NCBI GenBank assembly: GCA_947378785.1
Contig: CANCLK010000008.1
Coordinates: forward strand, 1-64,000
Length of the DNA: 64,000 nucleotides
Direction: 5' to 3'
Source: Comamonadaceae bacterium
Lineage (GTDB): Bacteria > Pseudomonadota > Gammaproteobacteria > Burkholderiales > Burkholderiaceae_C
A program made the translations under genes and the position numbers. The first letter of the stretch is position 1, and every line of letters starts with the position of its first letter. The notes beneath the pieces were generated by a model. It made no database searches, was not told where the DNA came from, and saw only the letters and a program-made list of their open reading frames with translations. Below, in pieces: positions 498 through 890 of the stretch.

Positions 498-583
498 CTC
501 ACCTTGGGACAAAGGTGAGCGTGGTTGCGGGAATCTGCTCCCAAGCCTGACGAAACCTGGGTTTCGCTGCAACGCTCCTTGAG
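498..583 (-). promoter_or_regulatory. SAH riboswitch-like leader plus RBS-sequestering hairpin upstream of metH C-terminal half
   Basis: Minus strand CTCAAGGAGCGTTGCAGCGAAACCCAGGTTTCGTCAGGCTTGGG...CGCAACCACGCTCACC resembles the SAH riboswitch pattern (GAGGAGCGyUGCA ... CAGGCUCGG ... AACGrCGCUCAC), followed by CTCACCTT-TGTCCC-AAGGTGAG hairpin just before ATG. Confidence 0.85.
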
Positions 584-611
584 AAGGCCGTTATTTTAAC
601 CGGTCTACGCG

Positions 612-890
612 TCAGGGATCACGCAGCAGCAGCAGCATCTGTTCGACCGCATAACCACAATCCCGCGGCCCGCGCAGGCAGTGCTGGGCAATCGGCTCGA
701 CACTGACGGTTTGGACCGCCATACCGGGGCGCTGGACACTCAATTGCCCTGGTGCGGTGACTGTCACGACGTAATCTGGGTATTGACCAACGATTTTTCC
801 GGACAGCAAAACATCCCAGGAGGGCGGCTTTTGGCCGCAAGCTACCAGCACGGCGGCTGCCGCTAGCAGCAGGCATCGCCAGTGCGTCAA
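612..890 (-). CDS. Small putative lipoprotein, unknown function
   Basis: 92 aa, N-terminal signal with lipobox-like LVACG; lies between the two metH halves and overlaps the upstream metH ORF by 4 nt. Confidence 0.65.

Follow-up and report, generated by a model that had tools for sequence, protein, structure and literature searches.

In the stretch of Comamonadaceae DNA analysed here (64,000 nt, hereafter the window), a riboswitch for the waste product S-adenosylhomocysteine (SAH) on the minus strand very probably controls the translation of one half of a two-gene methionine synthase (MetH), namely the half with the folate, B12 and activation functions, and it is predicted from sequence to act as an ON switch. 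A wider reading, in which control is asymmetric throughout the family, with SAH setting the C-terminal half (C-half) through the riboswitch and a private promoter, the N-terminal half (N-half) exempt and SAH serving as a control of subunit ratio, is given about even chances.

Identification and structure of the SAH riboswitch aptamer

A cmscan search of the 64 kb window against all of Rfam 15 returned a single family at gathering level, the SAH riboswitch (RF01057), at positions 586–510 of the minus strand, with 56.5 bits against a curated gathering cut-off of 37 bits, an E-value of 9.7e-8 and alignment to model positions 1–78 of 78, and a rerun on positions 300–900 gave the same match. The original prediction of an SAH riboswitch pattern in the minus-strand leader is therefore borne out by the Rfam model, and all segments quoted there were found in the window sequence; the location given (498–583) was also right, except that the aptamer begins at 586, slightly beyond that range. 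By the Rfam criterion, the assignment of the element as an SAH riboswitch is supported, with SAH as the predicted ligand. No match above cut-off was observed in the window for the SAM/SAH riboswitch (RF01727) or a cobalamin riboswitch, and SAH was likewise the sole Rfam family in 20 related split-metH loci, with neither RF01727 nor a cobalamin riboswitch among them.

The aptamer core matches the Rfam consensus, with 7, 6 and 5 pairs in P1, P2 and the pseudoknot, respectively. According to the cmscan alignment and the sequence, the P1 and P2 region extends over 538–585 (minus strand), with P1 formed by 585–579 and 544–538 and P2 by 566–561 and 556–551, whereas the pseudoknot (517–577, minus strand), recognised from the sequence, pairs GAGCG (577–573) with CGCTC (521–517) and could be extended by UUG (572–570) with CAA (527–525). 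Both pseudoknot strands are invariant among 30 aligned aptamers, leaving no sequence variation that could reveal covariation. The aptamer ends 16 nt before the start of the MetH C-half, a SAM-cycle gene like ahcY and metF, in agreement with the earlier placement of the element directly before this half.

Split metH genes and their genomic context

The N-half, a homocysteine methyltransferase (PF02574, E 1.3e-95), is encoded at 887–1933 on the minus strand, and the start of the C-half at 3–494 on the same strand (ATG at 494–492), with a Pterin_bind match (7.6e-30) and a match to the metH profile. Only 164 codons of the C-half are visible because the contig ends there (window base 1 is base 1 of contig C8), and its domain content was taken from a full homologue of the same genus (L284), which exhibits Pterin_bind, two B12-binding domains and an activation domain, while the window copy stops at the pterin-binding region. 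Between the two halves sits a small lipoprotein-like ORF (612–890, minus strand) with a weak, sub-threshold LptM signal (24 bits, cut-off 27.7), whose start overlaps the N-half stop and whose relatives are found only in L285 (84%) and L284 (72%). The three genes are close together and co-directional, and within the window cmscan gave no SAH match ahead of the N-half. The downstream ORF had been proposed to be the cobalamin-dependent half of MetH and the N-half a separate upstream gene lacking the element, and both proposals agree with these domains and with the position of the single match.

The closest named genomes by N-half are those of Polaromonas, family Comamonadaceae. The source bin is incomplete (85% complete, 6.5% contaminated) and contains three SAH matches, which are that of the window, one at ahcY on contig C54 and one at a second split-metH locus on contig C80 (G000:C80:9432-12401, L285), where the N-half is 98% identical to that of the window. 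The window and C80 loci both keep the aptamer, the hairpin described below and the -10 box. A true duplication was disfavoured as the origin of the C80 locus in view of the contamination, the N-half identity and the broken C-halves, and it is probably a co-binned close relative, which fits with both C-halves being broken at contig ends.

Shine-Dalgarno hairpin as proposed expression platform

A hairpin that would sequester the Shine-Dalgarno sequence is located at 519–498 on the minus strand, with the 5' arm CTCACCTT at 519–512, the loop TGTCCC at 511–506 and the 3' arm AAGGTGAG at 505–498, the latter being the Shine-Dalgarno sequence itself, 3 nt from the ATG. In the fold calculation, it has 8 bp and -9.8 kcal/mol, with most pairs at a probability of about 1 when no pseudoknot is formed, and it corresponds to the second hairpin that had been expected to hide the ribosome-binding site. 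The anti-Shine-Dalgarno arm had further been said to overlap the 3' strand of the aptamer, and the overlap exists but is restricted to the CTC (519–517) that the 5' arm has in common with the pseudoknot strand CGCTC, which amounts to 3 of the 8 bp. A 5-bp stem, ACCTT/AAGGT, calculated at -2.7 kcal/mol, might remain with SAH bound.

Among 101 related leaders, a perfect complement of the pseudoknot strand of at least 6 nt was observed downstream in 85 (1.9% of shuffles) and of at least 8 nt in 45 (0.04% of shuffles). In 74 leaders GGTGAG is spaced from a start codon as a Shine-Dalgarno sequence would be, and with GGTGAG picked independently of the aptamer position, two flanking positions of the hairpin arms covary: position 7 is complementary in 64 leaders (56 expected from shuffles) and position 8 in 57 (47 expected), with p 0.0002 or lower and p-values that ignore shared ancestry, while position 9 in the same leaders showed no pairing above shuffles. 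The CTC shared by hairpin and pseudoknot is conserved and covarying, though the 5-bp remnant could persist. As a Shine-Dalgarno sequence, GGTGAG was found before 77 of the 124 riboswitch-bearing C-halves, before none of the 18 C-halves that lack the riboswitch, and before a single one of 82 N-halves, that of L286, which has the riboswitch in front; these counts indicate that the hairpin follows the riboswitch rather than the gene.

The calculated cost of opening the GGTGA core in the window drops from 9.3 kcal/mol in the free leader to 5.6 kcal/mol with the aptamer enforced, and in 67 leaders the mean drops from 9.1 to 4.6 kcal/mol, with a lower value in 63 of them; in the enforced state P1 was imposed and the pseudoknot strands were held, and as the pseudoknot itself is omitted from the calculation, these differences are suggestive only. 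The ON switch of the original prediction is favoured by the tie of GGTGAG to the riboswitch, the covariation at positions 7 and 8 and the lowered opening energy, but release is probably partial because hairpin and pseudoknot overlap by only 3 bp and the 5-bp remnant could stay in place. Taken so, the modelling favours an ON switch that is moderately strong and not all-or-none.

Different leader designs were also observed. In about 15 relatives, such as L072, L087, L088, L090, L099, L116, L122, L123, L142, L166 and others, GGTGAG is situated in the loop of a 5–8 bp hairpin, e.g., GGCCGC-GGTGAGTT-GCGGCC, and in several of these a third GGCCGC copy adjoins the start codon; such a leader, a type to which that of the window does not belong, could be a three-part switch, likewise of ON polarity. 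The CTCACC...GGTGAG pairing also occurs in 20 of 24 ahcY leaders (L003-L033), where GGTGAG lies away from the start codon, so the pairing is not unique to the metH C-half design, and some of these leaders exhibit a terminator-like CCACGC...GCGTGG followed by a T run. Tandem SAH aptamers were detected in other families of the order, in L264 and L272 (G189, G160), where they precede ahcY, and also in G196 and G198. The L272 leader has what looks like an intrinsic terminator (CGCTCGCATCTC...GAGATGCGAGCG and a T-run after it) that shares the pseudoknot strand of the first aptamer, an arrangement that fits a transcriptional ON switch with another aptamer after it, close to the start codon.

Conservation of the riboswitch and its probable promoter among relatives

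An SAH match was detected in 148 of 151 genomes of the same family, usually two per genome, and in these 151 genomes the C-half (145) and the N-half (147) are present as separate genes. With a covariance model built from 30 aptamers and searched against DNA fetched upstream of C-halves, an aptamer was observed directly upstream on the same strand at 124 of 143 C-half loci, some of them weak (24–30 bits), the 143 loci including two from the window's own bin; the remainder comprise 18 loci without an aptamer and one (G126, L286) with the aptamer before an N-half/C-half operon. The bit score of the window aptamer is typical for the family. Among 80 N-half loci of named genomes, the fetched DNA contained an SAH match at 24, which lies downstream of the N-half at 23 and upstream at one (L238). 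At these two loci (L286:205-294 and L238:2396-2476) the riboswitch stands before the N-half and not immediately before the C-half; in L286 the two halves form a single operon with overlapping genes, and the GGTGAG hairpin is found just ahead of the N-half start. The original statement that only one subunit would respond is upheld by position and promoter across the family, with L286 and L238 as rare exceptions. Elsewhere in the order, the best riboswitch matches whose surrounding loci were retrieved precede ahcY, hence the association of metH with the SAH riboswitch looks particular to Comamonadaceae, in line with Leyn et al. (2014; PMC4239095).

A predicted -10 box of a C-half promoter, TAAAAT, is located at 598–593 on the minus strand. 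The motif TANAAT occurs 18–25 nt before the aptamer GAGCG in 118 of 123 homologous leaders, with a background of 1 in 961 upstream windows of 40 nt. The transcript would accordingly be expected to start at about 587–586, where the aptamer has its 5' edge. The homologous leaders share no conserved -35 box, and a sigma-70 consensus scan of the window found no promoter; the -10 box is predicted from its conservation. Many relatives have the N-half kilobases off or on another contig, and since the spacing between TANAAT and the aptamer is constant and the N-half is so often distant, the C-half is probably served by its own promoter.

Proposed mechanism and alternative explanations

In the mechanism proposed, a promoter for the C-half would start transcription right where the aptamer begins. 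At low SAH, CTCACCTT would pair with AAGGTGAG and the Shine-Dalgarno sequence would be hidden; with rising SAH, the aptamer would fold and hold CGCTC in the pseudoknot with GAGCG, at the cost of the outer three hairpin pairs (CTC/GAG), and the remaining 5-bp stem would be weak enough to permit ribosome entry, turning translation of the C-half ON. SAH may thereby tune the C-half alone, alongside ahcY, for which this genome has a separate SAH riboswitch; the N-half gene, located upstream of the riboswitch, would be beyond its reach.

The aptamer might bind SAH and act by transcription termination or mRNA stability, with the GGTGAG hairpin incidental, as could be suggested by the occurrence of such hairpins off the start codon in ahcY leaders and by the terminator-like stem overlapping the pseudoknot strand in the L272 leader of another family. 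This route appears improbable for the window, in which a scan found no terminator-like site from the aptamer to the start codon, and the placement of GGTGAG at Shine-Dalgarno distance in 74 leaders, together with its absence from C-halves without a riboswitch, also speaks against it. A degenerate or decoy aptamer, functionless in the source genome, is less probable still and would be a surprise: the bin behind the window is indeed incomplete and contains two nearly identical split-metH loci, but both have retained aptamer, hairpin and -10 box, and the score is that of an ordinary family member.

Translational control from within an operon deserves somewhat more weight, though it is still considered unlikely. 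Here the riboswitch would be a brake inside a transcript of N-half, small ORF and C-half, with most C-half mRNA coming from the N-half promoter, consistent with three close, co-directional genes in the window and with the lack of a strong -35 box. The strong conservation of the -10 box at fixed spacing to the aptamer and the many relatives with a distant or separately placed N-half argue against such an arrangement, and translational ON control of a C-half transcribed from its own promoter is preferred; some read-through from an N-half or small-ORF promoter into the C-half may still take place.

Comparison with known systems

The riboswitch class, its MetH target in Comamonadaceae and split MetH are already known, the last two from PMC4239095 and PMC7311316, respectively. 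The window element resembles RF01057 in its full-length match, in its P1, P2 and pseudoknot and in its position before a SAM-cycle gene, and its ON logic is that of the title of the 2008 SAH riboswitch paper (Wang et al., 'activate genes', as cited in PMC11188199). At the level of the aptamer, no difference from RF01057 was seen, and the platform of the window consists of a compact Shine-Dalgarno hairpin that has CTC in common with the pseudoknot strand; a platform so short, sharing pseudoknot bases, suggests how SAH riboswitches can be translational ON switches. Leyn et al. (2014) listed MetH within the SAH riboswitch regulon as a member specific to Comamonadaceae (PMC4239095), so that family, riboswitch and target are all shared with the window, whereas the split of MetH, the placement before the C-half only, the promoter and the expression platform are not mentioned in the accessible portion of that study. 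The split MetH of Burkholderia phytofirmans (PMC7311316) has the same cut, with the homocysteine domain on one side and the pterin, B12 and reactivation domains on the other, and the portion of that paper at hand does not discuss a riboswitch. As class and target were known, the gain is one of detail and not of kind: a riboswitch and a private promoter are assigned to one MetH half only, with rare exceptions. The result is a clear and testable example of a split enzyme with one half predicted to be under metabolite control and the other half not, and the two uncommon relatives that carry the element before the N-half can serve as natural points of comparison.
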